Origin: Pseudorhodoplanes sp.
GTDB lineage: Bacteria > Pseudomonadota > Alphaproteobacteria > Rhizobiales > Xanthobacteraceae
DNA: 64,000 nucleotides
Assembly (NCBI GenBank): GCA_032027085.1
Contig: JAVSMS010000001.1
Location: 591,711 to 655,710 of the forward strand
Reading direction: 5' to 3'
The notes below the pieces were generated by a model. It worked only from the letters and a program-made list of their open reading frames with translations, ran no database searches and was not told the DNA's origin. Shown piece by piece: positions 6,367-59,555 of the stretch. The first letter of the stretch is position 1, and the number at the start of each line of letters is the position of its first letter. Position numbers and translations under genes: made by a program.

Positions 6367-6424
6367 ATTCCCCCTTTTGCCGATGGCCCACGGCGTTTCT
6401 CCGCGCTAATAGAGAATGAAAAGC

Positions 6425-6441: not shown

Positions 6442-6458
6442 AGGCTGTTGGGGGGATT

Positions 6459-40665: not shown

Positions 40666-40701
40666 GGAAATACGATGTTCCTCTGTTGGACGTGAGCAGA
40701 C

Positions 40702-41223: not shown

Positions 41224-41334
41224 GATTCATCGGGGTTGAGTTTCCTCGTGCGCGATCCGCAGGTCCTTGCCCGTCACAATCAGGGCCTGTGCCTCACGCA
41301 TCGCCTGGGCTGCGTTCGCCGCAGATATACGAAT

Positions 41335-41595
41335 CTAGTCGAACAGTGTCGCCATTTCCTCGAACACACCTGGGTCGTCTTCCCCTCCGTTGATGTCATC
41401 GAGCTCGGCAAGAAAATAGAGCTGAGCCGCGATCCAATCCCTCTGCCGGCGCCCCTGTCGAAGCGCGCTGCGAAATCGGCGGCGAAATTCGAGGTCCGAG
41501 AAACGCTCGAGCGCGCCGTCGAGCGTCGTTCTGCACTCGCAATCAAGTGCACAACGGCACTGGACTCTCCGGCATTTTGCAGAGGCATGAACCAC
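41335..41595 (-). CDS. Hypothetical protein, 86 aa
   Basis: A possible small gene with GTG start at 41595. Residues 27-86 look protein-like: LERFSDLEFRRRFRSALRQ then an acidic end (AELDDINGGEDDPGVFEEM). GGAAG lies 4 nt upstream. A plus-strand frame overlaps (41236-41625) but reads as low complexity. No family recognised; low confidence. Confidence 0.35.
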   Translation of the reverse strand: MVHASAKCRRVQCRCALDCECRTTLDGALERFSDLEFRRRFRSALRQGRRQRDWIAAQLYFLAELDDINGGEDDPGVFEEMATLFD

Positions 41596-41734
41596 TCATC
41601 TTCCGGTCGAAAGGCCGATTTATAGTCAAGAAAAATGCCGGCAGAACTGGCAACCGACGTTGTGGCCGCGCAAACTTCAACGGTCTGATGTGCGCAAATC
41701 CGCCGGCGAGTTATGAGCGGCTTAGGGTGAAACG

Positions 41735-41775
41735 CGCTTTGGGAGAAGAGATCACAGGCTCTCCCATAAAGCGCA
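41735..41775. terminator. Hairpin before the paaY 3' end
   Basis: GCGCTTT-GGGAGA pairs with TCTCCC-AT-AAAGCGC, a stem of about 13 bp with a small bulge and a loop of about 13 nt. It lies 20 bp beyond the paaY stop and could terminate it. No U-tract. Confidence 0.45.
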
Positions 41776-41794
41776 CCGTGACGACAGCTCTGCC

Positions 41795-42442
41795 CTACTT
41801 TCGGTCATGACGAGGATTGCGGCGCTTTCGCCTCGCATCGCGCAAGGGAAGCGACATACCCTCATCCATCCGCTTCCGGCCGGGGTCGAAATGCGTCAAC
41901 GGCTGCGCCGCAATATGCGTCGCCAGGCTTCTTTTCGCCAACTGATGATATTGCTGGGTCGCCTCGATCTTGATGGCCAGCTCATCGTCGGTCAGTTCGC
42001 GCAAGACCCTGGCCGGAATGCCCGCCGCCAGATGACACGGCGGAATCTCGACGTCGGTCGCAACAAAGCTCATGGCCGCGATGATCGCGGATTCGCCGAT
42101 GACGGCGTGGTCCATGATCACCGAATGCATGCCGACCATTGCGTTCCTTCCGATGCGCGCGCTGTGGATAATGGCGCCGTGCCCGATATGTCCGTCGGGT
42201 CCGATTACGACGTCCGTGCCGGGCAACGTGTGCAGCGTGCAGTTGTCCTGCACATTGGAGCCATGCTCCAGCACGATGCGGCTGAAATCTCCGCGCAGCG
42301 ATGCACCCGGCGCCACGTAGCAGCCTGCGCCGATCACCACATCGCCAATGATGATGGCATCGGGGTGCACGAAAGCGGTCGGATCGATGACCGGTGCGAT
42401 GCCGTCGATGGAATAGATTTTGCGTTTGTTCGAGCTCATCAC
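41795..42442 (-). CDS. paaY: PaaY-like hexapeptide-repeat thioesterase / gamma-carbonic anhydrase fold
   Basis: A 215-residue left-handed beta-helix protein. Hexapeptide repeats run from PVIDPTAFVHPDAIIIGDVVIGAGCYVAPGASLRGDF through IVLEHGSNVQDNCTLHT, GPDGHIGHGAIIHSARIGRNAMVGMHSVIMDHAVIG; the Zn histidines are in HT, HIGHGAIIH. The LVRELTDDELA and HFDPGRKRMDEG C-terminus matches PaaY. It hydrolyses stalled aryl-CoA in phenylacetate breakdown. It neighbours a broken aryl-CoA ligase, so it may be a leftover of an aromatic-CoA pathway. It diverges from the Dabb gene 38 bp away. Confidence 0.82.
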   Translation of the reverse strand: MMSSNKRKIYSIDGIAPVIDPTAFVHPDAIIIGDVVIGAGCYVAPGASLRGDFSRIVLEHGSNVQDNCTLHTLPGTDVVIGPDGHIGHGAIIHSARIGRNAMVGMHSVIMDHAVIGESAIIAAMSFVATDVEIPPCHLAAGIPARVLRELTDDELAIKIEATQQYHQLAKRSLATHIAAQPLTHFDPGRKRMDEGMSLPLRDARRKRRNPRHDRK

Positions 42443-42480
42443 CCACTGTCCCTCAAAACAGCATAAGAAGGAAGCGACCT

Positions 42481-42807
42481 ATGTTCCGGCATGTGTCTCT
42501 CTACAGGATGGTGCCCGAGGCCGATCTGCAGGCGGCTATCGACATCCTCAATGCTCTGCCGGCAAAAGTGCCGGGAATCATCAACTGGACCCTGGGAGCG
42601 CATCGGTCGCCTCCCAGCGGGCGCAGCGGACACTGGGACTATGGCTTGGTGTGCGACTTCAGAAGCTTCGAGGATCTGCAGACTTACAACAGTCACCCGG
42701 CCCACTTTGAAGCCGTCAAGGCGGTCTTGCCAATGATCTCGGCGCACGCGATCTGCGATTTGAGTTTAACGCGGATAAATAAGACGTTTGGTGCCTCTTG
42801 GGTCTGA
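42481..42807 (+). CDS. Dabb (stress-responsive A/B barrel) domain protein
   Basis: A 108-residue protein, MFRHVSLYRMVPEADLQAAIDILNALPAKVPGIINWTLG then HWDYGLVCDFRSFEDLQTYNSHPAHFEAVKAVLP, the dimeric alpha/beta-barrel pattern of the Dabb family. Members act as small cyclases or stress proteins of mostly unknown role. AAGGAAG lies 7 nt upstream. The region after it is a degraded ligase gene. Confidence 0.85.
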   Translation: MFRHVSLYRMVPEADLQAAIDILNALPAKVPGIINWTLGAHRSPPSGRSGHWDYGLVCDFRSFEDLQTYNSHPAHFEAVKAVLPMISAHAICDLSLTRINKTFGASWV

Positions 42808-43568
42808 CTAGCCGATGGCTGGCAATTTTCTGAAGAACCCCCGCCACAGCAACAGTTTGGATTCAAGGGCGTGCGCTGCTATTTGTCGGCGGGCGAGTCG
42901 CTTCCCGAAAACGTCTATAACCGTTGGCGCGAGGCCACGGGCGCGCCGATCGTCGAAGGCATCGGCATGACCGAAACAATATTCATGGTGATAGGCGGCA
43001 CGCCGCAGGACCATCGGCCGGGCGCCACCGGCAAGCCCTTTTCCTATACCGAAGTGAAGCTCCTCGATCCCGAAGACCAGCCGGTCGAACCGGGATCACC
43101 GGGGACGCTCCGTCTGGGCTCGCTGTGCAAAGATTATTGGCAGCAGCCGGAAAAGACCGACGCGGCCTTCCGCGACGGCTGGTTCCGCACCGGCGACGTC
43201 TTCGTCATCGATGAAGAAGGCTGGTGGCGATCATCAGGGCCGCGCCGACGATCTGCTCAAGATATCCGGGCAATGGGTCAGCCCGGCGGAGATCGAGGAA
43301 TGTGCGACGACAGTGCCCGGTGTGGCGGAAGCCATCGTCGTTGGCGCACAGGATGAAGACGGGCTGGTTCGGCTGAGCATGTTCCTGGTCGCGCCCGAGG
43401 GGGACAGCGAGACCTTGCTGCAGCGTGTGCAGGAACGTCTCCTGCAGACGCTCTCAAAATACAAGTGCCCGAGGCGCATTGTGTTCGTCGATGCGATTCC
43501 ACGCACCGCGACCGGAAAGGCGCGACGCTTTCGCCTGCGGAACTGGGCGGCATTTCCTGCAACGATTG
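42808..43568 (+). pseudogene. Truncated, frameshifted aryl-CoA ligase (4-hydroxybenzoate/benzoate type)
   Basis: AMP-binding enzyme C-terminal half. Frame 1 reads FKGVRCYLSAGESLP, GAPIVEGIGMTETIFMV, GATGKPFSY and KTDAAFRDGWFRTGDVFVIDEEGWWR. A one-base insertion near 43230 moves the homology to the next frame: QGRADDLLKISGQWVSPAEIEE, then VDAIPRTATGKARRFRLRNW. The N-terminal ~280 residues of a ligase are missing, and no start exists. It is joined directly to a DUF6455 sequence without the usual C-terminal stop. It is a clear pseudogene. Confidence 0.85.
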
Positions 43569-43850
43569 ATGCGCGCGCTCGGACTCGATCCGGTTCGCCT
43601 CGAACAGGCGAATGCGCCACTGTTCCGCAATCTGCAGCGAAAATGCGTCTCCTGCGACTCCCACGAACGCTGCGACGCCGAGCTACAACAAGGCACCTAC
43701 GAAGCCGACTTCCAGGACTATTGCCCGAATGCGGATGTCCTTGTTTCTCTGCGGATCGGCGGCGGCCCCATTAAGAGACATGCCGCGCGGTCTCGCGTTG
43801 CGGTTCAGAGTTGGGGGGCAGACAGTTACGAACACGCCGTCACGGCGTGA
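43569..43850 (+). CDS. DUF6455-family protein, probably 5'-truncated
   Basis: A 93-residue frame from ATG 43569: MRALGLDPVRLEQANAPLFR then LQRKCVSCDSHERCDAEL and DYCPNADVL, the DUF6455 core with its Cys pattern (Cys-x-x-Cys, Cys, then YCPNA). In-frame residues before the ATG (HFLQRL) also fit the family, so its true start was lost by fusion to the ligase remnant. The tail after IGGGP looks unrelated. It may be non-functional. Confidence 0.55.
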   Translation: MRALGLDPVRLEQANAPLFRNLQRKCVSCDSHERCDAELQQGTYEADFQDYCPNADVLVSLRIGGGPIKRHAARSRVAVQSWGADSYEHAVTA

Positions 43851-44110
43851 CGGACGATGGCGCCATGCGAGAACGGAGAAGCTGCGTCAATCGGCATTGC
43901 GCCAAATTCGTTATCGGCTAGGCGCGCTTTTTCAGTGGCTTAGCGCGGAATTTGGTAGCGGAGGACGGACCCGCGACCTGCTCACCGCTAAGCTCTTGAT
44001 TTCAAAGAATCCAGCTCGCCCAAAGTCGCCAATGGGTAATGTCACATACTTACATTCTAAGATTAGAGCGCTCTTATCTGCAAGTCCTGGAGGCCCACGT
44101 ATTAGACCTA
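43851..44110. other. Intergenic region, no supported gene
   Basis: 260 bp with no convincing frame. The reverse strand at about 43935-43985 resembles the 3' part of a tRNA (GTCGCGGGTCCG with CTCCGCTACCA), but the T-loop is deleted and no full cloverleaf is present. It may be a scar of an attachment site. Confidence 0.4.
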
Positions 44111-45116
44111 TGGCCTGCACCCGGTTTTGTTGACACGCACTTAAGCTAACCCGTGCTTCCGCTCGAACTCCATAGGGCTGAGATAGCCGATGGTCGAGTG
44201 CCTGCGCTTCGGATTGTAGAAGCGCTCGATATAGTCGAACACGTCGGCCTTGGCTTCGTCCCGTGTCCGGTAGGTCTTGCGCGCCGTGCGCTCGGTTTTC
44301 AGCGACGAGAAGAAGCTCTCCATCGCCGCATTGTCCCAGACATTGCCGGAGCGGCTCATTGAGCAGACGATGCCATGATCTGCCACCAGCCGCTGGAATG
44401 GCTCACTGGTATATTGACTGCCACGATCGGTGATGCAGCAGCGCGTCAGGCTTGCCCCGCCGCCAGATCGCCATCACCAGCGCATCGGTGACGAGCTGAG
44501 CCGTCATGGCGGCACTCATCGACCAGCCGACGACGACGAGAGAACAGGTCCACGACGGTCAAGACGTAAAGCCAGCCCTCGGCTGTCCAGACATAGGTGA
44601 AGTCGGCAATCCATCGACGGTTGGGAGCGGGAGCGGCAAAGGCGCGGTCAAGCACGTTCGGAGCGACGGCGGCGGCCTGCCGCGGACCCAGGTCAGGCGG
44701 CAGCCGACGCCGGCGCGGGCGGGCTTTAAGCTCCTGGCACCGCATCAACCGCTCGAACAGGTGCAGTCCGCAGGATATCCCTTCGGCGAGCAGATCATGC
44801 CAGACCCGCCTGGCGCCATAGGTCCGGTCGCTCGCCAGGAAGCTCGCTCGCACCTTCGCGCCGAGCGCTTCGTCATTGCGACTGCGCTGGCTGCGGCCGC
44901 TTCAGCCACGCATAGAAGCCGCCCCGCGAGACACCGAGCGCCCCGCACATCCAATCCGCCGGCCAGATCCCCCGGTGCTTCGCGATGATGGAGCACTTCA
45001 CGTCGATTCCTTCGCGAAGTAGGCTGCGGCTTTTTTTTTTGGATGTCCCGCTCCGCTTTCAGCTTGTTCACTTCGCGCTTGAGCCGCGCGATCTCTTCGG
45101 AACCGGGTGCAGGCCA
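44111..45116 (-). mobile_element. Degenerate IS3-family insertion sequence
   Basis: The span is bounded by a perfect 16-bp inverted repeat, TGGCCTGCACCCGGTT at 44111-44126 and its complement at 45101-45116. It holds IS3-type transposase sequence on the minus strand. The right repeat falls inside the transposase orfA frame, and the N-terminal half of orfA is missing, so this copy is truncated. No target duplication is seen next to it. Confidence 0.75.
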
Positions 45117-45127
45117 CTTACTCATAA
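44141..45127 (-). pseudogene. IS3-family transposase (OrfA remnant and frameshifted OrfB)
   Basis: OrfA keeps only SEEIARLKREVNKLKAERDIQ, then a run of ten A residues (45031-45040 as T) where two extra bases put the expected AAYFAKEST end out of frame. OrfB pieces are in different frames: MCGALGVSRGGFYAWLK, ASDRTYGARRVWHDLLAEG, RRWIADFTYVWTAEGWLYVL (first Asp) and, after two more shifts near 44530 and 44400, SGNVWDNAAMESFFSSLKTE (catalytic Glu) to the stop at 44141. The second Asp motif is disrupted. It cannot make an active transposase. Confidence 0.85.
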
Positions 45128-45370
45128 CGGCCATTTGGCTTGGGTATAGGACTCCGAGTCTAAGAACAAAAGTGAACCGGCTCAGCCACTTAGCCGGCGA
45201 GTCCCGAATTGTGGGGTAGCTTTGTGGGGTAAAGGTATCCTGAGCTTCAGCTTTCCACAACCCGCTACGAGAACCGAGGCTTTGCGGCCGCCGTTGCTGT
45301 AAAGAGAAGTGCGTCCGACTTGGGGGAGATCGATGGTGACAGAAGCCTGCCTGAAGGCCATCCCGGAGCA
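45117..45370. other. Non-coding stretch upstream of the defence-like operon
   Basis: 254 bp that must hold the promoter of the operon. TTGTGGGGTA occurs twice at a 13-bp step (45209-45218 and 45222-45231), a pattern I associate with core sites near DUF4102 integrase genes, though no integrase is in the window. A short frame [13 protein letters not shown] ends at the operon start. Otherwise nothing. Confidence 0.45.
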
Positions 45371-48300
45371 ATGAGACTTGAAGAAGTTGCACCCGGGCAA
45401 AGCCTCTCGGGGATCGAACCAACTGACATTGTGACCGTTGTGGCGGTCGTACCGCTGGCCGAAGGGTCTGTGCAGCTAATTTACCGCGCGCCTGACGGGA
45501 CGATGAAGGAACGCCTGCTCGGGCGGGCGGAAGAAGCAACAATCGCCGTTGCCAGTACCGAGCGCCCGTTCTCGTTCGACGGCGACGGTGGTGCCTTCCA
45601 ACTGGCCTGCGAGGCCAAGCGGATAGACCTTGCCTTCCTGTTTGATCCGATGATGGCGGTGCACAGCTCGAACGTCGAGCCGCTGCCGCACCAGATCACC
45701 GCCGTTTACGAGTCACTGTTGCCGCGCCAGCCGCTGCGCTTTGTTCTTGCCGACGATCCTGGCGCCGGCAAGACCATTATGGCGGGCCTCTACATCCGCG
45801 AGCTTATCATGCGCGCGGACTCGCACCGCATTCTAATTGTCGCGCCAGGCAGCCTGGTCGAGCAGTGGCGCGACGAACTGTTTGAGAAATTTGGGCTGGA
45901 GTTTCACGTTTATTCGAGCCTGCTGGAGCAGACCTCGCCCAGCGGCAATCCCTTCGACGACTTCCCGCGCCTGATCGTCCGCCTCGATCAGCTTTCCCGC
46001 AACGAGGAGCTACAGGACAAGTTGTGCAATCCTGGCTGGGACCTCGCCGTGTTCGACGAGGCACATAAGCTGTCGGCGCACTATTTCGGATCTAAGCTTG
46101 AAAAGACGGCACGTTTTCGGTTCGCGGAGAAGCTGGGCAAGCATGTTCGGCACCTACTGCTGATGACGGCGACGCCCCACAACGGCAAGGAAGAAGACTT
46201 CCAGCTTTTCCTGTCGCTTCTGGATTCGGACCGCTTCTACGGAAAATTCCGGGATGGCGTTCATAAGGTCGATCCCTCCGACCTGATGCGTCGCATGGTC
46301 AAGGAAGAACTACTGAAATTTGACGGTACCCCGCTGTTTCCGGAGCGTCGCGCCTATACAGTCAATTACGAGTTATCACCGATCGAAGCTGCGCTCTATG
46401 AGGCCGTTACCAACTACGTGCAAACGGAGATGGGCAAGGCTGACCAACTCCAAGGCGCGCGCAAGGGATCGGTCGGTTTTGCGCTCACCGCGCTGCAACG
46501 GCGACTTGCCTCAAGCCCAGAGGCCATCTTCCAATCGCTCAAACGCCGCCGCGAGCGGCTTGAGAATCGGCTGCGCGAAGAAAAACTGGGTATCCGGGGC
46601 CGCCAGCCCATTGCCGAGACTTATCCCGGAATCCCTGAGGATGACGACGACCTCAGCGCCGAAGAACAGGAAACTCTTGAAGAAAATCTGATCGACGAGG
46701 CGACCGCCGCCAAGACCGTTACCGAGCTTGAGGCCGAGATCGTCATCCTCAAAGGGCTGGAAGCCCAGGCCAAGGCCGTTGTCGCGTCAGGCCAGGATCG
46801 CAAGTGGGATGAGCTGTCCAAGATTTTGCAGAATAATCCCGAAATGCGCGATGCCGCCGGCCGGCAGCGCAAGATCATCATCTTCTCAGAGCATCGGGAT
46901 ACGCTGAATTACCTTCATGCCAAGGTTGCCGGCGTGATTGGAAATCCCGATGCCATCGTCACCATTCACGGCGGCACGCATCGTGATGAGCGCCGCCGAC
47001 TCCAGGCATTGTTCCGTTCCGATCCCGATGTTCGCGTGCTGGTGGCAACCGACGCAGCCGGCGAAGGCGTAAACCTTCAGAACGCGAACCTCATGGTCAA
47101 CTATGACCTGCCCTGGAACCCGAACCGGCTGGAGCAGAGGTTCGGTCGCATCCACCGTATCGGGCAGACTGAAGTCTGCCACCTGTGGAATCTGGTCGCC
47201 AAAGAAACTCGTGAGGGTGACGTCTATCATCGGCTGCTTAAGAAGCTGGAGGTCGAAAGTGCCGCGCTGAAGGGCCGCGTCTTCGACATTCTGGGCGAGG
47301 TTTTCGAGGAAACCAGTCTCAAAGACCTCCTCATTCAAGCTATCCGCTACGGTGACCAGCCTGAGGTGCGTGCGCGTTTGACGCAAAAGATCGACCAGGC
47401 GCTCGACCACGATCACCTCAAGAACCTTCTCAACCGCAATGCTCTCGCGCAGGAAACTATGAGTGCCGAGCGGCTATTCGCCGTCAAGGAAGAAATGGAG
47501 AAGGCCGAAGCCCGGCGGCTCCAGCCCTTCTTTGTGCGCGCCTTCTTCACCAAGGCGCTGGATACCCTCGGCGGAACGGCGCATCCGCGCGAATCCAGCC
47601 GCTATGAGGTCACTCATGTCCCCGCAGCGATCCGCGAACGCGACCGCCGCTTGACCGGGCGGAACCGGCGAGAGAATGAGCCGGTGCTGCGGCGGTATAG
47701 CCGCATCTGTTTCGAACGGGAGGCCATTCAGCCGCTCGACAAGCCCGGGCTGGAGCGCGCCGTTCTCATGCACCCCGGCCATCCGCTTATGCTCGCCATG
47801 TCGGACATGATCCTTGAGCAGCATGCCAACCTGCTGCGGCAGGGTGCCGTTCTTATCGACCCTGCCGACGAAGGTCTTGATCCCGCGCTGCTGTTTCTTC
47901 TCACCCACGAAATCAAATCGGGTGACGGCGCCGTTCTTTCCAAGCGTCTGCAATTCGTGCGCGTTAGGCCGGACGGCAAGGCGGAGTTCGCGGGCTGGGC
48001 GCCGCATCTTGACCTTGAGCCGATGTCAGAGAGCGAACGCGTTTTGCTCAGGGATACCCTCAAGGCGTCGTGGCTTGCCTCGGGCCAGGAACAGCGTGCC
48101 TTGTCGCTGGCGGCAACGACGCTTGTGCCCGAACACTATGGCGAGGTCGCCCAGCGGCGTATCGCCCATGTCGAAAAGACCCTCAACGCCGTGCACGAGC
48201 GCCTGAGCAAGGAAATCGCCTTCTGGCAGGATCGCTGGCTCAAGCTCAAGGAGGACGGCGAGGCCGGCAGGGACGTTCGCCTCAACCTCCAAAATATCGA

Positions 48301-48883
48301 GCGCACGCTTTCCGATCTGCAAAGCCGCCTGGAAAACCGCAAGAAAGAGCTTCAGGCCATGCGGCACGTCGTCAACGGCACCCCAGTCGTGCTGGGCGCG
48401 GCGCTGATCGTTCCGGCGGGCCTTATGGCAAAACTGCGCGGTGATGAGCCGGTCGATCCGGCGGCGGCGACCTTTGCCGCCGACCCGGCGGCACGCTCGC
48501 GCATCGAGCAGCTTGCCATGCAGGCCGTGCAGAAGGCTGAGGAAGCGCGCGGCTGCCGCGTCGTCGATGTATCCGCTGCAAAATGCGGGTGGGATTTGAG
48601 TTCCTATCCCCCTGCCATCGACGGCAAACAGCCCGACCCGCGCCATATCGAGGTGAAGGGCCGAGTGAAGGGCGCCAGCACCGTTACCATCACCCGTAAC
48701 GAAATGCTCTACGCCTTCAATCAGGGCGACAAGTTCGTACTGGCCATCGCGCTGGTCGGCGAGGACGACTCCATCGACGGCCCGCATTACATCCGCAATC
48801 CTTTCGACCGCGAGCCCGGCTGGGGAGTCGCGTCGATCAATTACAGCTTGGGCGATCTGCTCGCCAAGGCAGAAGTTCAATGA
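45371..48883 (+). CDS. SNF2-family helicase with C-terminal DUF3883 domain
   Basis: A 1170-residue superfamily-2 ATPase. Walker A is [13 protein letters not shown] (128-140), motif II DEAH (229-232), motif [14 protein letters not shown]; motifs V and VI appear in [42 protein letters not shown] coiled, acidic insertion splits the two RecA lobes. The C-terminal DUF3883 has Asp1075, then IEVKGR with Glu1094 and Lys1096, a D...ExK array like PD-(D/E)xK nucleases. I chose the ATG at 45371 because the family begins MRLE; a TTG at 45320 adds 17 residues. It opens a four-gene operon and resembles helicases of DISARM-type defence systems. Confidence 0.88.
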
Positions 48884-49383
48884 GCGCCGCCGATGTTATG
48901 GGAAAGCAGGCCCTGGTGGTCGCCACCGCGCTGACGACGGCAGAGCAATCGAATGCGATTGTCGTTTCCTTCGATGCTAAGTGGCATCGCAGTTTGTTAG
49001 GCGGGACACTGGGTGCCGTCATTCGGAAACGCGTGCCTAAAGAACGAAGTTTTGACTGGCTATATTTTCACGTCAATAGCCCGATAAGCGCGATCTGTGG
49101 ACGAGTTAGAATCGACAAAATTACTATGATCACCTTGCAGCAAGCAATTCGACTTGCCGAGCAACTCAACCTTCCTCCAGATGCAATAGCGCAGTACGTG
49201 GGGCACGACGGCCGAGTCGGATGCTATCATCTCGGCTCGTTTCAGATCCCATCCGTCGCGCTGCATCGCTCTACTCTCACCGAGAGGGTGAAATACAGTC
49301 CGCCACAAAGCTTTCTAATTCTTTCCAAAAGCGCAAAAGAAATCATCGACGCGATCTGCGGCTTCGATGATGTTTCGTCTTGA
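48880..49383 (+). CDS. ASCH/PUA-like domain protein in defence-like operon
   Basis: A 167-residue protein with no catalytic motif. Residues 26-165 follow the ASCH/PUA pattern: an opening strand [50 protein letters not shown], a helical insert with [19 protein letters not shown], and a closing [17 protein letters not shown]. Such domains bind RNA or modified bases (compare EVE and YTH). The ATG overlaps the helicase stop by 4 bp and the methyltransferase starts 13 bp after it, so it is an operon member. I infer a reader of the modification made by the next gene. Family call is by eye. Confidence 0.7.
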
Positions 49384-49396
49384 GAGGGTTAGAATC

Positions 49397-52294
49397 TTGA
49401 CTTCAACAATAAAATCCCCCCGCAAGCTTATCGAGGTGTCGCTCCCACTGGACGCGATTAATATTGCTGCGGCTCGCGAAAAATCCATTCGACACGGCCA
49501 TCCCAGCACATTGCATCTGTGGTGGGCGCGACGACCGCTGGCTGCGGCGCGGGCCGTGATATTTGCACAGATGGTCAATGATCCATCGTGGAAATGGGAG
49601 CTTGAGCATCCCGGCGAGGTTCCGCCCAACAATCTCAAGGCAAGCTGGGCCAAAAGCCGCAATCGGTTATTCGCCATCATCAAAGATATGGTGACCTGGG
49701 AAAACACCACCAACGAAGAAGTGCTGGAAAGAGCCCGCGTTGAAATCCGCAAGTCCTGGCGCGAAACTTGCGACCTCAACAAGGATCACCCGCAGGCTGC
49801 GGAACTGTTCGACCCCGGAAAGTTGCCCGCTTTCCACGATCCGTTTGCCGGCGGCGGCGCCTTGCCGCTGGAGGCGCAACGGCTTGGGCTTGAAGCCTAT
49901 GCGTCCGACCTCAACCCCGTCGCCGTCCTCATCAACAAGGCGATGTTAGAGATTCCGCCAAAGTTTGCGGGACGCCCGCCGGTGAACCCGGAAGCGCGCG
50001 CAAGCCATGACTCTTGGAGCAACCAGTGGAGTGCGGCGCAAGGAATCGCCGAAGACGTCCGCTATTACGGCCAATGGATGCGCGAGCAAGCGCAAAAGCG
50101 CATCGGGCATCTCTACCCGCCTGTCGAGATTACGAAGGACATGGCAGATGATCGGCCCGATCTGAAACCGCTTGTCGGAAAGAAACTCACGGTCATCGCC
50201 TGGCTCTGGGCGCGGACGGTGAAAAGCCCGAATCCCGCCTTCCGTCACGTCGATGTGCCGTTGGCCTCAACGTTTGTTCTTTCAAGCAAGGAAGGCAAAG
50301 GAGCCTACGTTCAGCCCATCGTCAATGAAGACAAGTACAGCTTCACGGTGAAGGTAGGTAAGCCGCCGCAGGAAGCTAGTGAAGGCACCAAGGCCGGCGG
50401 TCGTGGCGCGAACTTTCGTTGCGTGCTCTCACATACACCCATTGGCGGCGACTACATCAAAGCTGAGGGGCGAGCCGGGCGCATGGGCGCAAGGCTCATG
50501 GCCATCGTCGCAGAAGGTACGCGAGGCCGTGTCTTTTTGGCGCCGACCCTCGAACACGAGAATGCCGCTCGGCTGGCGCAACCCGCTTGGAAGCCCTCTG
50601 GCAATGTGCCTGCCCGCCTCACGGGCGGTACGTGCGTTCCTTATGGCCTGACCGAATGGGGCGACCTCTTCACCCCGCGCCAGCTTGTGGCGCTGACGAT
50701 GTTCAGCGATCTCGTTACGGAAGCTCGAAAACAAATTGAGCACGACGCGCTGGCCGCCAACCTGCCCAACGACGACACCGCACTCGAATCGGGCGGCTCA
50801 GGCGCAAAAGCCTATGCTGATGCTATCGCGGTGTATCTCGGCCTGGCCGTCAGCAGGACGGCGAATACAATAAATTCTCTTGCTGTATGGTCTCAAAGCC
50901 GCGAACAGAGCGTCAATTTGTTTAGTAGACAAGCCATACCGATGGCGTGGGACTTCCCAGAGGTAAATCCCTTCGCAGGCGCGGCTGGTGATTTCGGAGC
51001 TACAACAACGTCCATTGCGAAAATAGTGTCGCAAGCCTTGATACGGTCTGCGCACGTGCAGCAGGCAGACGCGCAGACGCAGGAAATATCTAGGTCAAAG
51101 CTGATCTCGACAGACCCGCCCTACTACGACAACGTGGCTTATGCTGACCTAGCTGACTTCTTTTACGTCTGGATTAGAAAGTCCCTTCGGCCAGTCTTCC
51201 CGAGTCTGTTGGCAACCGTTGAGACACCCAAGGTGGAGGAGCTTGTCGCTTCTGCCTATCGCCACGGCGGGAAGGAAAGGGCCGAGATGTTCTTTCTTGA
51301 CGGCATGGCTCTATCGCTAACCCGTCTCGCCGCTTTGGCCCATCCAAGTTTCCCGCTGACTATCTACTACGCATTCAGACAATCCGAAACGGCCACAGAG
51401 ACTGGCACGACATCAACAGGTTGGGAGACATTCCTAGAAGCGACCAAGCGGGCCGGATTTGCGCTGACTGGAACTTGGCCGATGCGTACTGAGCGGCCAA
51501 GTGGTGTGAAGACCGGTACAAACGCCCTCGCATCCAGTATCGTCCTTGTTTGCCGCCCGCGACCCGCGACGGCGGAAACCATTTCTCGCCGCGCATTCCT
51601 GCGCGAGTTGAATCAGGTTCTACCCGAGGCGCTTGATGAAATGACACGCGGCTCCGGCGACGACCGTTCTCCGGTCGCGCCGGTCGATCTTTCCCAGGCC
51701 ATCATCGGTCCCGGCATGGCCGTGTTCTCAAAATACGCCGCCGTGCTTGAGGCCGACGGTACTCCAATGACGGTGCAGACCGCTTTGCGGCTCATCAATC
51801 GCTTCCTCGCCGAGGACGACTTCGACCACGATACGCAATTCTGCCTGCACTGGTTTGAGCAGTACGGATGGAAGGAAGGCAAGTTCGGCGATGCCGACGT
51901 TCTGGCACGCGGAAAAGGCACCAGCGTTGACGGCGTGAAGCAGACCGGCGTGCTCTATGCTACCGGTGGCGTCGTCCGCCTGCTGAAATGGGGTGACTAC
52001 CCGGCGACCTGGAATCCGACAGAGGATGATCGCCTGCCGGTATGGGAAGCCCTGCATCACCTGATCCGCATCTTCAAGACGGAAGGCGAGAGCGGCGCGG
52101 GAAAAGTCCTTGCGGCCGTCGCCGCGAAAGCCGAGCCGACGCGACAGCTTGCCTATCGTCTTTATACGCTGTGCGAGCGCGCGGGCTGGGCTGAGGATGC
52201 CCGCGCTTACAATGAAATTGTCACAAGCTGGAGCGCCATCGAGTCCGCCGCCGCAGCGGCTCCGAAGGCGCAGCAGGCTGATCTATTCGGATGA
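49397..52294 (+). CDS. DUF1156-family DNA methyltransferase
   Basis: A 965-residue protein. The N-terminus [41 protein letters not shown] is the DUF1156 signature. SAM motif I is [15 protein letters not shown] (148-160) and the amino-methyltransferase motif IV is DPPYYDN (573-579), pointing to N6-adenine or N4-cytosine. The order I then IV with about 420 residues between suggests an alpha-like arrangement with the target-recognition region in the middle. A TTG start at 49397 follows GAGAGGG; an ATG at 49367 would overlap the ASCH-like gene. No separate nuclease gene is present. Confidence 0.9.
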
Positions 52295-52304
52295 GGGGGC
52301 TGAT

Positions 52305-55139
52305 ATGAAACCTTGGAGGGAAGTGGCTGTTCCCCATCAGGACGTACTCGAAGGCACGTTTCAGCAATCGGAGTTTGCGGCCGATATTACGGCGGTCAGT
52401 ACCGGCAAGGCGAGCCGTGAATATCAGGACGCCGCCGCTTTCTTCGATCGTACCTTCATTACTGAGGGCATGGCGCTTCTTCTGACGCAGGTGGCGCAGC
52501 GGCTTGCCGGCAAGGGCGGCGAGCCGGTCGTACAGCTTCAAACCGCGTTCGGCGGCGGCAAGACCCACACCATGCTGGCCGTTTATCACCTTGCGACCCG
52601 CAAGGGCGTCTTGTCCGAACTCGCGGGCATTCCGGCCCTTGTTGACCGGGCCGGGTTGATGGACGTGCCACAGGCACGCGTGGCCGTGATCGACGGAACC
52701 GCCCATGCGCCGGGTCAGCCATGGAAGCGCGGCGGTCAGACCGTCAGGACACTTTGGGGCGAACTTGCCTGGCAGCTTGGCGGTGCCGAAGGCTACGCAC
52801 TCGTTGCCGAGGCTGACGCGACGGGTACATGCGGCGCAGAAGTGCTGCAGCCGCTCTTGGAGAAATATGCACCTTGTGTCGTTCTGATCGACGAACTTGT
52901 GGCTTATTTTCGACAATTCCCCGAATCGCAGACCATAAGCGGCGGCAGCTACGATACCAATCTATCCTTTGTTCAAGCGTTGACTAATGCGGTCACACGG
53001 GTGCCCCGCGCCATCGTTCTAGCGTCATTGCCCGAGTCCGATGTTGAGGCCGGCAGCCAGCGCGGCGTTGCTGCGCTCCGGGCTCTCGAAAAGACTTTCG
53101 GGCGCGTGCAGGCGATTTGGAAGCCGGTAGCGACCGAAGAGGCTTTCGAGATAGTGAGACGACGGCTATTCGAGAAGGTAGGCGACGAAAAAACCCGCGA
53201 AGCCGTGTGTCGCGCTTTCGCCGATCTCTACATTGCCGAGGGTGTCAAGCTTCCATCTGAAACGCAGGAACGACGCTATTACGACAGGCTACTGCAAGCT
53301 TATCCCATCCATCCGGAAATCTTCGACCGGCTATATGAGGACTGGACGACCATTGACGGCTTCCAGCGTACACGTGGCGTGCTCAAACTGATGGCAAAGG
53401 TCATCTTTCGCCTCTGGAAGGACGACAACAAAGACCTGCTCATCATGCCCGGCAGCCTGCCGCTGCATGACGGCAGCAGCCGTAACGAACTCACCTACTA
53501 TCTGCCCGCCGGCTGGGATGCCGTGATCGAGCGCGACATCGACGGCGAGCGCGCGGAAACCACCGCGCTCGAAAGCCGGGAGCCGCGCTTCGGCCAGGTC
53601 GGAGCCGCCCGGCGCATTGCGCGCACGATCTTCCTTGGCAGCGCGCCATCGTCCGTTGTGTCCAATGCTGCCGCACGTGGTATCGACCGCGCGCATATTG
53701 TACTGGGGTGCTTGCAGCCGGGGCAAACTTCATCGGTCTATACCGATGCCCTTAGCCGTCTCGCCGACCGGCTGCATTATCTCAACGCTTCCGGCGACAA
53801 AAGCCAGGATGCGACGCGTTTCTGGTTTGACACCCGCGCCAACCTGCGCCGTGAGATGGAAGATCGCAAACGCCGGTTTGACGATCTCACGGAGGTTCGC
53901 GTCAAGATCGCGGACACGCTCAAAAAGACCCTTAGCGGGGCGTCATTTTTCGATGGCGTACATATCTTCACATCCCACGCCGATGTGCCTGACGACAGCG
54001 CGCTGCGGCTTGTCGTCCTGCCCCCTGAAAACTGGTACACGAGGGACGAGGCGCGGCTTGCATTCGATCTCGCTCTGGAGATCATTACTAAAAATGGTGC
54101 GACGCCACGTTATCGCAGCAATCGCCTGATCTTCCTTGCTGCTGACCACGGCGCGCTTGCTAGACTCAGGGATGTTGCGCGTGTGGCACTCGCCTGGAGC
54201 TCGATCGTCGATGATGTAAAGGAAGGTCGACTCAATATTGACCTTTTGCAAAAGAGCCAGGCCGAGAAAGAACTCAAGAGCGCCGAGGACGTTCTACCGC
54301 GTGCGGCGCGCGAATGTTACAAGTGGCTGCTCTGCCCGACCCAGGATGCGCCCGCTGACAAGTCTGGCATCGAGGCGTTCCCTCTGAACACCGCTGGCGG
54401 CGCTGGCGCAGAGATTGAGCGGGTTTGCACCGACAACGAACTTGTCATCACCACCTGGTCGCCAATCCACCTGCGCGCAAAGCTGAAGGAACTTTACTGG
54501 AAAGGCGGCCAGAACGCCGCCAACGCTTCCGCCTTCTTTGAGGATACGCTGCGGTATCTTTATATGCCGCGCCTGAAATCGCGGGATGTTCTAGGGCAGG
54601 TAATTCACGCTGGCGTGGCCAGCAAGGATTTCTTCGGCACGGCCTATGGTCAGGCCGACGGTAAGTTCGAGGGCTTCGGCCTGGGCAGCGGCAGTGTGGT
54701 GTTCGACGATACCCTGCTTCTGATTGAGCCAGAGACGGCACGCGCTTACGAGCAGGCAAACCGGACGAAAGCTCCGAACTCCGATGTCGGGTCCGGTCCA
54801 ACCGTGACTACGGGAGCAGATACCAGTCCGGACTATCCTCTGCCCTCCACCACACCTGGCGGCGGACTCTCGGACCCAGGTGGAAAGCCGTTGGTACCGG
54901 GAGCGGCAAAAGTCAAATCTTTCTTCGGCTCAGCCGACATTCCGACCGCCACCGCGAAGATGCGCTTGGTGCAGATTGCCGACGAGATCGTCTCCGTGCT
55001 TGCTTCCGATCCAAACGCGAATATTCGCCTCACCGTCGAGATTTCTGCCGACTTTCCCGACGGGGTAAATGACTCGATAAAGCGCGCAGTTTCTGAAAAC
55101 GCCCGCAGTCTTGGACTGAAGGCCGCTGATTGGGAGTGA
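52305..55139 (+). CDS. DUF499 P-loop ATPase
   Basis: A 944-residue protein with the DUF499 N-terminus: [26 protein letters not shown]. The P-loop is [19 protein letters not shown] (about 80-98) and Walker B is [14 protein letters not shown] (about 193-206). A long helical middle and a Pro/Gly-rich linker (about 840) lead to a C-terminal small domain. The family is known only from co-occurrence with DUF1156 methyltransferases and helicases in predicted defence loci. I trimmed an upstream reading to the ATG at 52305, 10 bp after the methyltransferase stop (GAGGGG upstream). Confidence 0.88.
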
Positions 55140-55323
55140 GTAGGACGTGCGACATCCTGAATTTGTTGGGGCTGACAAATTGTTACGACACGACTCGTGA
55201 GGATGGGATGAGAGGACGCTTCAAGTTGGGCGCTGCCCGACTATGACCTGCCTCCGGTTTTCTGGACTGCGCTAAGCTGGAAAATTCCAGTTTTGCGGCA
55301 ACGGCCGGAGGACGGAGCGAACC

Positions 55324-55590
55324 ATGAAGAGATCGAAGTTTTCGGAGGCGCAGATTGCCTTCGTGCTGAAGCAGGCGGAGGACGGCACCGCGATCGGCGA
55401 AGTCTGCCGGAAGGCAGGGATCTCCGAAGCCACGTTCTACAACTGGCGTAAGAAGTATGCCGGTCTGATGCCCTCGGAGATGAAGCGCCTGCGTCAGCTC
55501 GAGGATGAGAACGGCAAGCTCAAGAAGCTGGTCGCCGACCTGTCGCTTGATCGCGCCATGCTGCAGGATGTTCTTCGCCGCAAACTATGA
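55324..55590 (+). CDS. IS3-family transposase OrfA
   Basis: An 88-residue DNA-binding subunit with an N-terminal HTH (SKFSEAQIAFVLKQAEDGTAIGEVCRKAGISEATFYNWRKKYAG) and a leucine-zipper helix (LKRLRQLEDENGKLKKLVADL-like). Its stop overlaps the OrfB start (ATGA), where the two are coupled or joined by frameshifting. Confidence 0.93.
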   Translation: MKRSKFSEAQIAFVLKQAEDGTAIGEVCRKAGISEATFYNWRKKYAGLMPSEMKRLRQLEDENGKLKKLVADLSLDRAMLQDVLRRKL

Positions 55591-56456
55591 AGCCTGCCCG
55601 GCGTCGGCAGTTGGTCGATCATGCGCGATCGACCTGGAAGGTCTCGATCCGTCGCGCCTGTTCAGTCCTGGTGACGGAGCCCTCGACCTACCACTACAAG
55701 AGCCGCCGCGCTGGGCAGGCGCCCCTTTGCCACCGGATGAAGGAGATCGCCGCAACACGGGTGCGCTACGGCTACCGGCGGATTCATGTGCTGCTGCGGC
55801 GTGAGGGCTGGCCGGTGAACGCCAAGCGCGTCTATCGGCTGTATCGCGAGATGGGCCTGCAATTGCGCAACAAAACGCCCAGGCGCCGGGTCAAGGCCAG
55901 GCTGCGAGACGACCGTCAGCCAGCGACCCGCTCGAACGAGATCTGGGCGATGGACTTCGTGCACGATCAACTCGCCACCGGCCGCAAGTTGCGCGTGCTC
56001 ACCATCGTGGACACGTTCTCCCGGTTTTCGCCGGCGACGGAAGTGCGCTTCAACTTTCGCGGTGCCGATGTTGTCGAGGTGCTTGAACGTGTCGGCCGCC
56101 AGCTTGGCTATCCAAAGGCCATCCGGGTCGACCAGGGCAGCGAGTTCGTCTCGCGCGATCTCGATCTCTGGGCCTACCAGCGTGACGTCACGCTCGACTT
56201 CTCCCGGCCAGGCAAGCCCACCGACAACGCATTCATCGAGTCGTTCAACGGCAAGTTCCGGAGCGAGTGTCTGAACGCACACTGGTTCATGAGCCTCGAC
56301 GATGCGCAGCGAAAATGCGAGGCTTGGCGTAGACACTACAACGAGGAGCGACCACACAGCGCGATCGGCAACCGACCGCCGATCGACGTGCTGAATCGAT
56401 CAGCGGCGCACGGCCCGCCACTGGTCGAACAGGCTGGAAATTCCCCAGCCGCGTGA
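55587..56456 (+). CDS. IS3-family transposase OrfB (DDE integrase)
   Basis: A 289-residue catalytic subunit. The rve/DDE core is intact: WAMDFVHDQLATGRKLRVLTIVD (first Asp), IRVDQGSEF (second Asp) and DNAFIESFNGKFRSECLN (Glu). YGYRRIHVLLRREGWPVNAKRVYRLYR is the usual upstream HTH. The element may be active, unlike the decayed copy at 44111. Confidence 0.94.
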   Translation: MKPARRRQLVDHARSTWKVSIRRACSVLVTEPSTYHYKSRRAGQAPLCHRMKEIAATRVRYGYRRIHVLLRREGWPVNAKRVYRLYREMGLQLRNKTPRRRVKARLRDDRQPATRSNEIWAMDFVHDQLATGRKLRVLTIVDTFSRFSPATEVRFNFRGADVVEVLERVGRQLGYPKAIRVDQGSEFVSRDLDLWAYQRDVTLDFSRPGKPTDNAFIESFNGKFRSECLNAHWFMSLDDAQRKCEAWRRHYNEERPHSAIGNRPPIDVLNRSAAHGPPLVEQAGNSPAA

Positions 56457-56529
56457 TCCAAAGACGGGGTGCAGCTCAACTAGGAACGGACTCTACCCAA
56501 AAACGGGGGCAATTAAGGGGAGCAGGTCA

Positions 56530-56836
56530 CCGTTTTGAAGCCGTCAATCTGGAGCGGGGCTTCGTCGCCCTTTGCCCACCAAAGACGCCCAGGGCCTCTC
56601 CTAGAGAGCTCGCACTGCGAACCCCAGAAAAGACCCGGCCGAACCTGCGACGCACCTGCAAGGGCTGTTTCCGGGCGTTCTCCGGCTTGCCTAGCCACCA
56701 GCGCGCTTCCGTAGCAGCTTGCGGCGGCCGCTTGCTCGACAAAAATCCTGAATCGCCCCTCCGGCCAGGTCGCGAACGTTGCGACCCGGCCGTTTTGATT
56801 GGCCGGCTGGATTACCGATCAATGCACCAATGCACC
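56530..56836. other. Spacer after IS element, no supported gene
   Basis: 307 bp. A plus-strand frame continues to 56863 but reads as low-information Arg/Pro sequence. Possible gene debris at the junction of the defence-like operon and the mobilisation module. Confidence 0.4.
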
Positions 56837-57163
56837 TCACCGTCGAAACAAACGCTTGAGTAAACGGACCAACATCTGGAGGTCCCGCTGCAACCGCGTA
56901 ACAGCGAGCAGCAAATAGACGGTCCTGATCGCAGAATTCGGCGAAAGCGCGAAGGTTGAATTACCCAGATGGGCGTGGTCGAGCGCTTGCCGCAGCATTA
57001 CGACAAAGGCACGCGAACCGATCTGTGGCGGAGCAACGCCGCAATAAACCAAGTAGGCGTCGCCGGTTTCGGCAGCAATCTGTCGCCTAGCCAAATCCGG
57101 CGCCCTCGTTGCCAAAATACGTACGTGCCCGTCCGCGCCAGCCACAAGCGTGACGATATGCAT
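56837..57163 (-). CDS. Hypothetical protein of the mobilisation module, 108 aa
   Basis: A 108-residue protein starting MHIVTLVAGADGHVRILATRAP, with GDAYLVYCGVAPPQIGSRAF in the middle and a basic leucine-rich end (LQRDLQMLVRLLKRLFRR). I do not recognise the family. GGAGGG lies 8 nt before the ATG at 57163; an in-frame GTG at 57169 is also possible. It is downstream of the primase gene on the same strand. Confidence 0.5.
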   Translation of the reverse strand: MHIVTLVAGADGHVRILATRAPDLARRQIAAETGDAYLVYCGVAPPQIGSRAFVVMLRQALDHAHLGNSTFALSPNSAIRTVYLLLAVTRLQRDLQMLVRLLKRLFRR

Positions 57164-57464
57164 GATCACGCCCCTCCCGCGCGAATTAGCGCAGCCGCAG
57201 CAGCAGCAGTCGAGATTACCTGATAGAGGGCTCGGACCCGGCGTCCGATGGGTCCATTATTGACGACGCGCTGCGTCGCCCGCATGGTATTGGGAACCAT
57301 GACGATCTCCTGTGGTAGCAGGTGGTCGAATGGCCAGGTCGTGCCGGGGTTGCACCCCCGGCGCGGCCGCCCTTAAGTGCGGTCGCTGCCTGACCAGCCG
57401 CAGGATGCGGCTGCTATTAAATGGGAAGTAGCGAGACAGTATATCAAGAAGGGCGCACTGAAGT
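57164..57464. other. Spacer between small gene and primase, no supported gene
   Basis: 301 bp. A 27-codon minus-strand frame from ATG 57299 has an excellent AGGAG site but ends at TAA near 57216, so it might be a leader peptide or nothing. A GC-rich stem lies at about 57340-57375. Confidence 0.4.
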
Positions 57465-58427
57465 TCAACCGAGAGGGTTAATGGGCGAATAACTGCTCTT
57501 ACCCTCAAGATGCATCGAAGCAGCCTCGACCGTGCGCCAGGCGTACGAATAGTCCTTGTCGGGGCGGGTCTGGGCGAGCCAGGCCGCGATCTCGCTTCCG
57601 TCAATACCATGTGCCAAAGCTTCTACGGCAGACGCGAAGTCAATTTCCGAGCGGGATCCGCTGGAAGCAGGCCGACGTCCAGCAGCAAGTTGCCCGTCGA
57701 TGCGCTTGGCCGCGCGAGCGCGAAATACGTCGAGCTGTTTCCAAAGCGGCATTTTGATTTCAGGAGCAGACAAGGCCGCTTTTTCCGGGCGGCGCCCCGC
57801 GCCCGCCCGCGCCTGTGACGCACATGCTGGCTCAATCTCCGCCAGGAGAGCGGCTGCCCGGGGCGCAACAAGACCCGGCGCAGTGTGGATCACGCGCACA
57901 AATGGAAAGAGACCATTCGGCTGGCGATACTTGTCCTTGCGATTTGTAAGGCCCGGCACCCTGCCCGGCTGCCACGCAGAGGCCGCGCGCGGATCAGCGT
58001 CAAACGTCTGAATGAGGTGCCGCAATGCGGCTTGCACAAGCTCCGGGCTGAGCCACGCCCCGACGGGCACCAAGCGAATCCACACCTGAAAATTTCCAGG
58101 TGAAGTTTCCACCGTAAGAACGGGCGGAAAGTCATTTGACGTCAAGCGCGCAACGTTGCCAGCCGTCACATCGTCAAGCAGTACGACGCCAGGATGTCCT
58201 CCCGTGTTAGCGCGAACGCGCAGGTACACGTGCGCGCCGCGCGCGTTCGCGGCACACGCGCGCGGCAGCAGAGCAAGCACATCAGACGTGGCAAGGTCCC
58301 GGTTTTGCCAGTACCCGCGACCGCGCACTTCACCGGGGCGGGGCGGAAAAATCATCCCGAGGTCGACCGGTGTGCCGATCGCCTCAATTGCCCTTGTCAC
58401 AGCCGAGACGGTGAGGGGATGCGTCAC
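57465..58427 (-). CDS. RepB-type plasmid DNA primase domain protein
   Basis: A 320-residue protein with a RepB_primase-like core: RVRANTGGHPGVVLLDDVTAGNV (paired Asp for metal), VLTVETSPGNFQVWIRLV and AWQPGRVPGLTNRKDKYRQ, all typical of relaxase-linked or plasmid primases. A C-terminal helical part ends with DKDYSYAWRTVEAASMHLEG. The GTG start overlaps the upstream gene's stop (GTGA). It would prime the transferred strand after mobilisation. Confidence 0.82.
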   Translation of the reverse strand: MTHPLTVSAVTRAIEAIGTPVDLGMIFPPRPGEVRGRGYWQNRDLATSDVLALLPRACAANARGAHVYLRVRANTGGHPGVVLLDDVTAGNVARLTSNDFPPVLTVETSPGNFQVWIRLVPVGAWLSPELVQAALRHLIQTFDADPRAASAWQPGRVPGLTNRKDKYRQPNGLFPFVRVIHTAPGLVAPRAAALLAEIEPACASQARAGAGRRPEKAALSAPEIKMPLWKQLDVFRARAAKRIDGQLAAGRRPASSGSRSEIDFASAVEALAHGIDGSEIAAWLAQTRPDKDYSYAWRTVEAASMHLEGKSSYSPINPLG

Positions 58428-58921
58428 CGTGCTCTCTCCGACCAGCCGGGGAGCCGGCCGCGCATTTTCGTAAACGCATAGCGGTTCACTTCGCGACTGA
58501 GTTCAGAGATCGGGAGGTTCGACCACTGAGGCGGAATTGCTTCGTTGATAGCGTCGAGAAACCTCACGCCCTCAAGCGCGGAATGCGTCACCGCAATCGC
58601 CTGACCGACCAGATCGCATGCAAGAGCCGCAAACTTATCAAACGCGCCCTCGCGCGCCTGACCCACAAAAGTTCCAAACCGCCCGTCGATTTCCAGCGGG
58701 GGATATTTTTCCTCCAATGCCGCGCATGCTAGTGCAACGGAAACTCCATCTCGTTTGGCTATGCGCTGGCCATCCCGGATCTTAGCAAGGTCCTGGAGTA
58801 CGGCCGTCTGGCTCGCAATGTGGCCGTTCAGTACGCGAAAAAGTGATGGAATTGTAGGCGCCCTAACCGGCTGCTCCACCTCCTCACTCCATCCATTTTC
58901 ACCAAACTCATTGTCCGACAT
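58424..58921 (-). CDS. Hypothetical mobilisation-module protein
   Basis: A 165-residue acidic-to-neutral helical protein (MSDNEFGENGWSEEVEQP, SLFRVLNGHIASQTAVLQDLAKI). The start at 58921 is set by AGGAG 6 nt upstream; an ATG 6 nt earlier is too close to that site. It overlaps the primase gene by 4 bp and diverges from mobC across the candidate oriT. Possibly an accessory relaxosome or copy-control protein, but unrecognised. Confidence 0.6.
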   Translation of the reverse strand: MSDNEFGENGWSEEVEQPVRAPTIPSLFRVLNGHIASQTAVLQDLAKIRDGQRIAKRDGVSVALACAALEEKYPPLEIDGRFGTFVGQAREGAFDKFAALACDLVGQAIAVTHSALEGVRFLDAINEAIPPQWSNLPISELSREVNRYAFTKMRGRLPGWSERAR

Positions 58922-59056
58922 GTGCATCTCCTAAGGTGCGGATCCTCTCAATATCGTTCGTCGGCCTGCAAAACCAAAATCGTCCGCGTGATTGAAATTA
59001 TTTGTTCGCCTCTTGCAGGCTCAGAAATCATTCTGGTGACGGAAGGACAGCGATAG

Positions 59057-59108
59057 CCAGGTGTGCGTGCGGATATCCGCACGCACCTGGGCAGGGGGCG
59101 AAGCCCCC
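59057..59108. other. Candidate origin of transfer (oriT)
   Basis: An almost perfect inverted repeat of 34 bp (59057-59090; arms CCAGGT...GCGTGCGGAT with a 2-bp asymmetry) followed by a GGGGG-CGAAG-CCCCC hairpin (59094-59108) and a C-run. It lies in the divergent gap between the primase operon and mobC-relaxase, the usual oriT place. Confidence 0.55.
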
Positions 59109-59132
59109 GTGCACCCCCCTTTGAGACGAACG

Positions 59133-59555
59133 ATGACGACTGATAAAAAATGCAGACGATCTGAAAAACGACAAATGCAGTGCACGTTGCTCGTGCGCCT
59201 TGACGATCAGCTCGCCAACAAGCTCGGCGCCGCAGCAAGGGCCGGCGGTTCAACGCGTCCCGCCTTCGTGCGCGCGCTATTGCTACATCACCTCGAACAA
59301 GAAACCCCCGCGCCCGCTTCGGTTACTGAATTGCAAGCAACGGCACCCGTGTCTCGCGTTACGGATATTGAACGATTGTTCGCCACAGCCGGCACCCATG
59401 TTGGGCGCCAGACCGGAGCACTCGTTCAACTCGCCAAGTCGGTGCGGGCGAATGGAGGGGCTTCCTCACTCCATGCTGAGATCGAGAAATTGATTATCGA
59501 CGCACGCAAGACGCTCGCATGCATTCGCGACGCGCTTCTGGAGATAAAGCCATGA
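59133..59555 (+). CDS. MobC-like ribbon-helix-helix relaxosome protein
   Basis: A 140-residue protein. Residues 15-55 form a ribbon-helix-helix motif (MQCTLLVRLDDQLANKLGAAARAGGSTRPAFVRALLLHHLE), and a helical region follows with SLHAEIEKLIIDARKTLACIRDALLEIK. It would bind oriT and help the relaxase. The ATG at 59133 excludes 24 residues of an upstream reading through the oriT-like hairpins. It overlaps the relaxase gene by 4 bp (ATGA). Confidence 0.8.
   Translation: MTTDKKCRRSEKRQMQCTLLVRLDDQLANKLGAAARAGGSTRPAFVRALLLHHLEQETPAPASVTELQATAPVSRVTDIERLFATAGTHVGRQTGALVQLAKSVRANGGASSLHAEIEKLIIDARKTLACIRDALLEIKP

Follow-up and report, generated by a model that had tools for sequence, protein, structure and literature searches.

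Does the run of four genes at positions 45,371 to 55,139 of a 64,000-nucleotide stretch from Pseudorhodoplanes sp. (contig JAVSMS010000001.1, the whole stretch being called the window below) represent a new anti-phage system, or a known one that carries an additional gene? The original prediction described a helicase, an ASCH-like protein, a methyltransferase and an ATPase, and could name no characterised system with exactly these genes. That last statement did not hold, as three of the four genes are those of Hma in the PADLOC models and the fourth, here called S, is an additional gene embedded among them. For the three there is an existing named system, an outcome that the prediction itself had listed as refuting. 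What the window holds is an Hma operon of the ordinary kind, apparently intact and in a mobile setting. Gene S and the slot state in which S stands alone are new; the remaining operon is known. On balance we favour an intact Hma operon with one embedded ASCH accessory gene, S, which more probably reads nucleic acids than cuts them.

In the open reading frame (ORF) list of the window the four genes are co-directional on the + strand in the order hmaA, S, hmaB, hmaC (Table 1), as had been described. The junctions were also reproduced: hmaA and S overlap by 4 bp (ATGA), a 13-bp gap separates S and hmaB given an hmaB start at TTG 49397, and a 10-bp gap separates hmaB and hmaC. The ORF list has an alternative hmaB start at ATG 49367, which overlaps S; TTG 49397 was favoured because of the alignment with the homologous hmaB start in locus L034 (Mesorhizobium denitrificans). 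The PADLOC check that the original prediction proposed returned HmaA, HmaB and HmaC and left S without a match. The HmaA model matched the helicase with 2081.7 bits (residues 1-1169 of 1170), the HmaB model matched the methyltransferase with 1708.2 bits over almost the whole protein, and the HmaC model matched the ATPase with 1437.7 bits (residues 1-944). Because the three models match near full length, the four-gene unit almost certainly belongs to Hma, also termed Type-1 BREX-related (Type-1 BR). Pfam agreed with the families first assigned, with Helicase_C, SNF2-rel_dom and NOV_C (the DUF3883 region, 62.7 bits) in the hmaA product, DUF1156 in HmaB and DUF499 in HmaC all above their gathering scores. 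HmaC had a single match in its own genome (one 4.97-Mb contig).

Hma was named in 2021 (PMC8565338; this and the following papers are cited for their available passages) and is listed in PADLOC as a three-gene operon of helicase, methylase and ATPase. The same source counts 1,638 instances in 26 phyla, frequently alongside Septu type I, and labels HmaB a 5-methylcytosine (m5C) methyltransferase. A later paper gives Hma the new name Type-1 BREX-related and predicts that its methylase is of the N6-adenine type. It also cites experimental work on a Halomonas helicase and gives an N-terminal TUDOR domain on the helicase as a Type-1 BR feature (PMC12839542, section 29 for the last). Such operons had been noticed earlier (PMC3710099, PMC7641849). 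The modification-based anti-phage role proposed for the window, in which the methylase marks self DNA, is plausible and is already a published prediction for such operons (PMC12839542, PMC7641849, PMC3710099). The window shares with Hma the three core families, the near-full-length model matches and the A-B-C gene order, and differs in carrying S between hmaA and hmaB. Its HmaC lacks the N-terminal HEPN extension, a state that Type-1 BR allows according to the passages seen. The four operon genes were scanned for markers of the related types and had no Pfam match to DUF3780 (a standalone gene in Type-2 BR) and no match to PglZ or iSTAND (core locus genes in Type-3 BR).

The core of the operon looks apparently intact, judging by its motifs. 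HmaA contains the helicase motifs DPGAGKT and DEAH, and its residues D1075, E1094 and K1096 are the same in all 59 aligned rows that remained once 31 missing, partial or frameshifted ones were dropped. The HmaA C-terminal region is a predicted PD-(D/E)XK nuclease, with the residues present and the activity presumed. In HmaB the motifs DPFAGGG (at 148) and DPPYYDN (at 573) are near-invariant, with DPP kept in 81 of 81 rows (9 dropped), and all 70 HmaC rows that were kept (20 dropped) share the GGGKT at 83-87. The DPPYYDN motif suits an amino-methyltransferase and alone cannot separate N6-adenine from N4-cytosine methylation. Aligned with seven close relatives, residues ∼301-675 of HmaB showed 27-65% identity per 75-residue block, compared with 59-97% in the flanking blocks. 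This variable centre, which lies between DPFAGGG and DPPYYDN and extends slightly past the latter, is as expected for a putative target-recognition region. In the predicted mechanism HmaB would methylate the amino group of adenine or cytosine and so mark host DNA, its target sequence being set by the variable centre. HmaC, as an ORC/Cdc6-like ATPase, would assemble or load the complex on unmarked DNA, and HmaA would translocate and then cut with its putative C-terminal DUF3883 nuclease, the motifs of which are present.

The position occupied by S was compared across 92 Hma loci, namely the best 80 of at least 592 from a genome contig collection, 11 from sampled genomes, and the window. The 91 non-window loci were picked by similarity to HmaB or HmaC and are therefore not a random sample. 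An HmaB match was present in 90 of the 92 loci, L032 and L033 being the two without it, and matches to A, B and C occurred together in 66 of the 92, so the gene grouping is not due to chance. In 68 of the 90 loci hmaA precedes hmaB and reaches residue 1100, and these form the slot set; the other 22 had no hmaA, an hmaA that ends short of residue 1100, or an hmaA that is not before hmaB. The order A-B-C was found in 65 of the 68 loci, and S in three: the window, L034 and L037, an Altererythrobacter metagenome-assembled genome. The idea of all four genes as one fixed cassette was rejected, given the rarity of S and the variability of the slot.

The hmaA-hmaB gap was at most 163 bases in 22 of the 68 loci and at least 293 bases in 46, and 44 of these 46 wide gaps contained a co-directional ORF of at least 120 aa. 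Slot ORFs of at least this length lay on the operon strand in 83 cases and on the opposite strand in 6. A Septu-like ATPase with a PtuB-like partner occupied the slot in 14 of the 68 loci (13 recognised through protein clusters, L034 through tblastn); the pair of L023, the one scanned singly, was PtuA and PtuB. When 83 slot proteins were scanned jointly, 16 matched the PtuA model PDLC00310 and 18 matched HEC-01A, two models that overlap. The hmaA-hmaB junction is a variable slot for extra genes. Embedding of extra defence genes in Hma is published already and is not new: available passages describe 'Septu in Hma systems' (PMC12255303), GmrSD-like genes inside Hma (PMC11411939) and Hma-embedded candidates (HEC; PMC10855318, PMC12988326). 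S resembles these in being a co-directional extra gene inside the same junction and differs in that the PADLOC models, those for HEC and Septu included, gave no match to window S at E 0.001; it was therefore rejected as a Septu or HEC gene.

Some slots held other large genes. The slot proteins of L025 (∼2156-6646) and L100 (4006-8214) are large and mutually related, and that of L025 matches PADLOC TmtA and has a Pfam sacsin domain just below the cut-off. A second variable slot was seen at the hmaB-hmaC junction, where the gap exceeded 730 bases in 28 of 65 loci, L112 and L092 among them, and contained other ATPase and nuclease-like ORFs; the family scan of this junction covered 56 of 58 ORFs. 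Gaps of ∼500-600 bases there were largely HmaC N-terminal extensions and not cargo, as seen in two loci.

The homologues of S in L034 and L037 are 45% and 44% identical to it, respectively. The GC content of S is lower than that of the measured neighbours in all three loci: 52.2 vs 59-61% in the window, 43.9 vs 59-65% in L034 (with the hmaB row excluded from the comparison) and 42.9 vs 55-62% in L037. Differences between the S genes fell on the three codon positions as 68/49/108 and 70/48/116, a pattern that, as far as sequence goes, shows S to be a coding gene under constraint. The slot genes of L042 (171 aa) and L110 (172 aa) were tried as S homologues and rejected, as an iterative profile search found no similarity; neither has a Pfam or PADLOC match. 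Searches with S gave nothing in plasmid and phage collections, and S and alignment A2 gave nothing in viral contigs. The search of the genome contig collection also gave nothing, yet L034 and L037 are in it, so this result is weak evidence of rarity. In three overlapping draws of sampled genomes the S profile recovered the window's own copy, which was the only close member. Beyond it, two weak matches at E ∼0.007 were found among 385 genomes, one ASCH protein at 8.5e-5 with three uncounted matches at 0.002-0.007 among 398, and three ASCH proteins among 397.

What kind of protein is S? Window S alone had no match in PADLOC (E 0.001), Pfam (0 families at E 10), NCBIfam or PDB. With the profile of the three S proteins, four genomes each yielded an ASCH-type protein (E 8.5e-5, 7.6e-7, 3.3e-6 and 9.7e-5), and hhalign of the S alignment (A3) against these four ASCH proteins (A6) gave 98.1% with E 9.3e-14. 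Viral-contig relatives of A6 (L126 and L130) pass the Pfam gathering threshold for ASCH. The four ASCH genes each adjoin a gene for a protein of ∼480-500 aa which by eye contains PIN and/or GNAT with EVE; the one such neighbour scanned gave EVE at a sub-threshold E of 0.25. An arrangement of ASCH beside PIN-GNAT-EVE is described in the available part of PMC7641849. The PADLOC model PDC-M11B, for an ASCH partner of PIN-GNAT-EVE proteins, matches the same four ASCH genes (G829, G1043, G880 and G641) at 1e-25 or better, so the catalogue of embedded candidates already includes related ASCH genes. It also had a weak, colinear match to the S of L034 (E 6.9e-6), and none to that of L037 at E 1 or to window S at E 0.001. 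S differs from this family in having no PIN-GNAT-EVE gene beside it and in lacking the Lys and Glu of the GxKxxExR motif.

A member of this family was also observed elsewhere in the same genome. In L147 (448500-453500) a separate two-gene unit at 200-2828 encodes a 728-aa protein, by eye GNAT/PIN/EVE, which overlaps by 8 bases a 149-aa ASCH gene; the ASCH protein matches PDC-M11B at 1.3e-25.

Structural comparison pointed in the same direction. Matches of the S profile to PDB sequences were borderline only, the best four being forms of ZmASCH from Zymomonas (E 0.014 to 0.06). An AlphaFold2 model of S, built from 14 aligned sequences, had a predicted local distance difference test score (pLDDT) of 84.0 and a predicted template modelling score (pTM) of 0.79. 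Its eight best Foldseek matches in PDB were all ZmASCH (best E 1.9e-10), followed by weaker matches to McrB N-terminal, TRIP4 ASCH, YTH and EVE structures. The modelled S shares the fold of ZmASCH (PDB 5guq, 5gus) with template modelling (TM) scores of 0.72 (query) and 0.83 (target) and a root mean square deviation of 2.2, and differs from it in sequence, with 16% identity. From the model, S very probably has the ASCH fold, and by the chained evidence of profile similarity and fold it is an ASCH-superfamily protein. The 'ASCH-like' label originally given to S thus gained profile-profile and fold support and found no direct Pfam match.

The residues of S favour binding. ZmASCH is a single-stranded RNA-specific ribonuclease that requires Tyr47, Lys53 and Ser128, according to the passages available (PMC5615036). 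In the PDB profile-match alignment Tyr47 is paired with His64 of S, Lys53 with Ser70 (Gly in the homologues) and Ser128 with Ser144, so that S retains the functional Ser and differs at the other two positions. The four ASCH rows of A6 all have the Lys and Glu of GxKxxExR, and none of the three S proteins has either (window S has Leu and Val there); the Gly is kept in two of them and the Arg in all three. Because of the changed ZmASCH residues and the lost Lys and Glu, binding by S was favoured over cleavage. We give about even chances to S being a non-catalytic reader or adaptor, and rank a role as regulator or Septu relic next and as RNase last. S would be a diverged ASCH/PUA-fold protein in a slot used elsewhere for Septu-like and other cargo; most likely it would act as an extra sensor or adaptor that binds DNA or RNA and leaves it uncut. 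A more specific and rather doubtful version is that S senses modified bases and can be swapped in and out: as a diverged ASCH reader it would take the place of Septu between hmaA and hmaB. If so, restriction of unmethylated DNA would also answer hypermodified bases, or restriction would be coupled to the HmaB mark, and type I-like and type IV-like recognition would meet in one operon.

Several points weigh against an intact operon with S as a reader. Gene identity, the intact motifs, the homology and fold of S and the variability of the slot were observed; every activity, methylation included, and all protection are predictions. The ASCH assignment depends on a profile of three sequences, S alone being without a significant family match, and the best PDB sequence match of that profile to ZmASCH was just E 0.014. 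The alignment behind the model included ASCH relatives, namely 11 proteins from viral contigs; these tilt the fold, and the model and the sequence evidence are therefore not independent of each other. The three S sequences alone gave a pLDDT of 37, and that model was discarded. His64 of S could retain a catalytic role. S, known from three loci only, may be a passenger. A simple scan found no sigma-70-like promoter upstream of hmaA, so expression of the operon is only putative; two sigma-70-like matches in the region were on the opposite strand and at chance level, and the promoter and terminator scan of the region gave nothing above chance level.

The strongest rival, though an unlikely one, ties S to a Septu-like module, either as its remnant or as its partner, which would make S a regulator, antitoxin or coupling gene without an independent role. 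The ancestral order would then be hmaA-ptuA-ptuB-S-hmaB-hmaC, with ptuAB lost in the window. In both L034 and L037, S lies between ptuB and hmaB, directly after ptuB and with short overlaps. Seven loci have an HmaA at least 87% identical; six of them carry the Septu-like pair PtuA and PtuB, three carry S, and the window is the only one with S and no pair, S being alone in its slot. The hmaA gene ends in ATGA in all seven. No match to PtuA or PtuB was found by tblastn in the window slice 40001-60000 (E 1e-5), and Septu type I was accordingly absent from it. However, S is missing from four of the six close relatives that carry Septu and so is no obligate partner of it, and the reading frame of window S is intact.

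A catalytic role for S is less probable still. On this view S would be a ZmASCH-like RNase that serves as a backup effector and cuts single-stranded RNA when the DNA-targeting core fails. The closest solved fold being a reported ribonuclease (PMC5615036, in its available part) fits this proposal, as does the nuclease cargo of other Hma operons, and the window HmaC lacks the HEPN that is fused to HmaC in 1370 of 2446 Type-1 BR taxa (PMC12839542, likewise in part). The changed functional residues and the missing GxKxxExR Lys and Glu argue against it, and we consider it improbable.

A class 1 DISARM variant, a theme raised at the outset, shares a Snf2 helicase plus DNA methylase with the operon and finds some homology in DrmD matches of the helicase (382 bits in PADLOC, 391.7 bits in NCBIfam), but is ruled out on the DrmD score, which misses the NCBIfam cut-off of 610 and is far below that of the HmaA model, and with the other three genes lacking any Drm match it is extremely improbable.

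With S placed in Hma, the locus bears on wider questions. The titles, abstracts and passages searched, which excluded supplements and the Payne 2024 preprint, contained no ASCH insert in Hma. Hma is widespread (26 phyla in the available part of PMC8565338), yet its DNA sensing and its frequent extra genes are questions on which S bears. Near-identical Hma cores that carry Septu, Septu with S, S alone or an empty slot offer a clean natural comparison. S would extend base-reader proteins to Type-1 BR operons; available passages report readers near such systems as EVE proteins near archaeal relatives (PMC7641849) and as DUF3780 fusions in Type-2 BR (PMC12839542).

Table 1. Genes of the Hma operon and neighbouring features, in window coordinates.
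Feature	Position	Strand	Description
hmaA	45371..48883	+	Swi2/Snf2-type helicase with C-terminal NOV_C/DUF3883 region, 1170 aa
S	48880..49383	+	ASCH-superfamily protein, 167 aa, embedded between hmaA and hmaB
hmaB	49397..52294	+	DUF1156 amino-methyltransferase, 965 aa counted from TTG 49397
hmaC	52305..55139	+	DUF499 P-loop ATPase, 944 aa, without N-terminal HEPN extension
IS3-family remnant	44111..45116	-	Broken IS3-type transposase fragments between perfect 16-bp inverted repeats; outside the system
IS3-family element	∼55244..56478	+	∼105 bp downstream of the hmaC stop codon; outside the system
RepB-primase gene	57465-58427	-	Pfam match
Relaxase-like gene	59519-61216	+	LPD7 domain; relaxase match slightly below the Pfam cut-off
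HerA-type ATPase	61877-64000	-	PADLOC HerA models, E 7.9e-24, C-terminal part

The operon is bracketed by IS3-family sequences, as first noted: a remnant upstream and a multi-copy element downstream (Table 1). No other full copy of the remnant exists in the genome, where only two ∼50-base matches to it were found; the downstream element recurs there in 6 further copies at 100% (rounded), plus two that have diverged (66-70%). No tRNA genes and no Rfam families at the gathering score were found within the window. The RepB-primase and relaxase-like genes form a mobile-element backbone adjoining the Hma operon on a chromosome-sized contig. The HerA-type protein beyond them has N-terminal hydrophobic segments by eye, and its gene is possibly a second defence gene near the operon. 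Upstream of the island, fragments of a UbiX-like flavoprotein, a hexapeptide-repeat protein and an AMP-binding enzyme at 40054-43774 suggest a metabolic neighbourhood interrupted ahead of the IS remnant.

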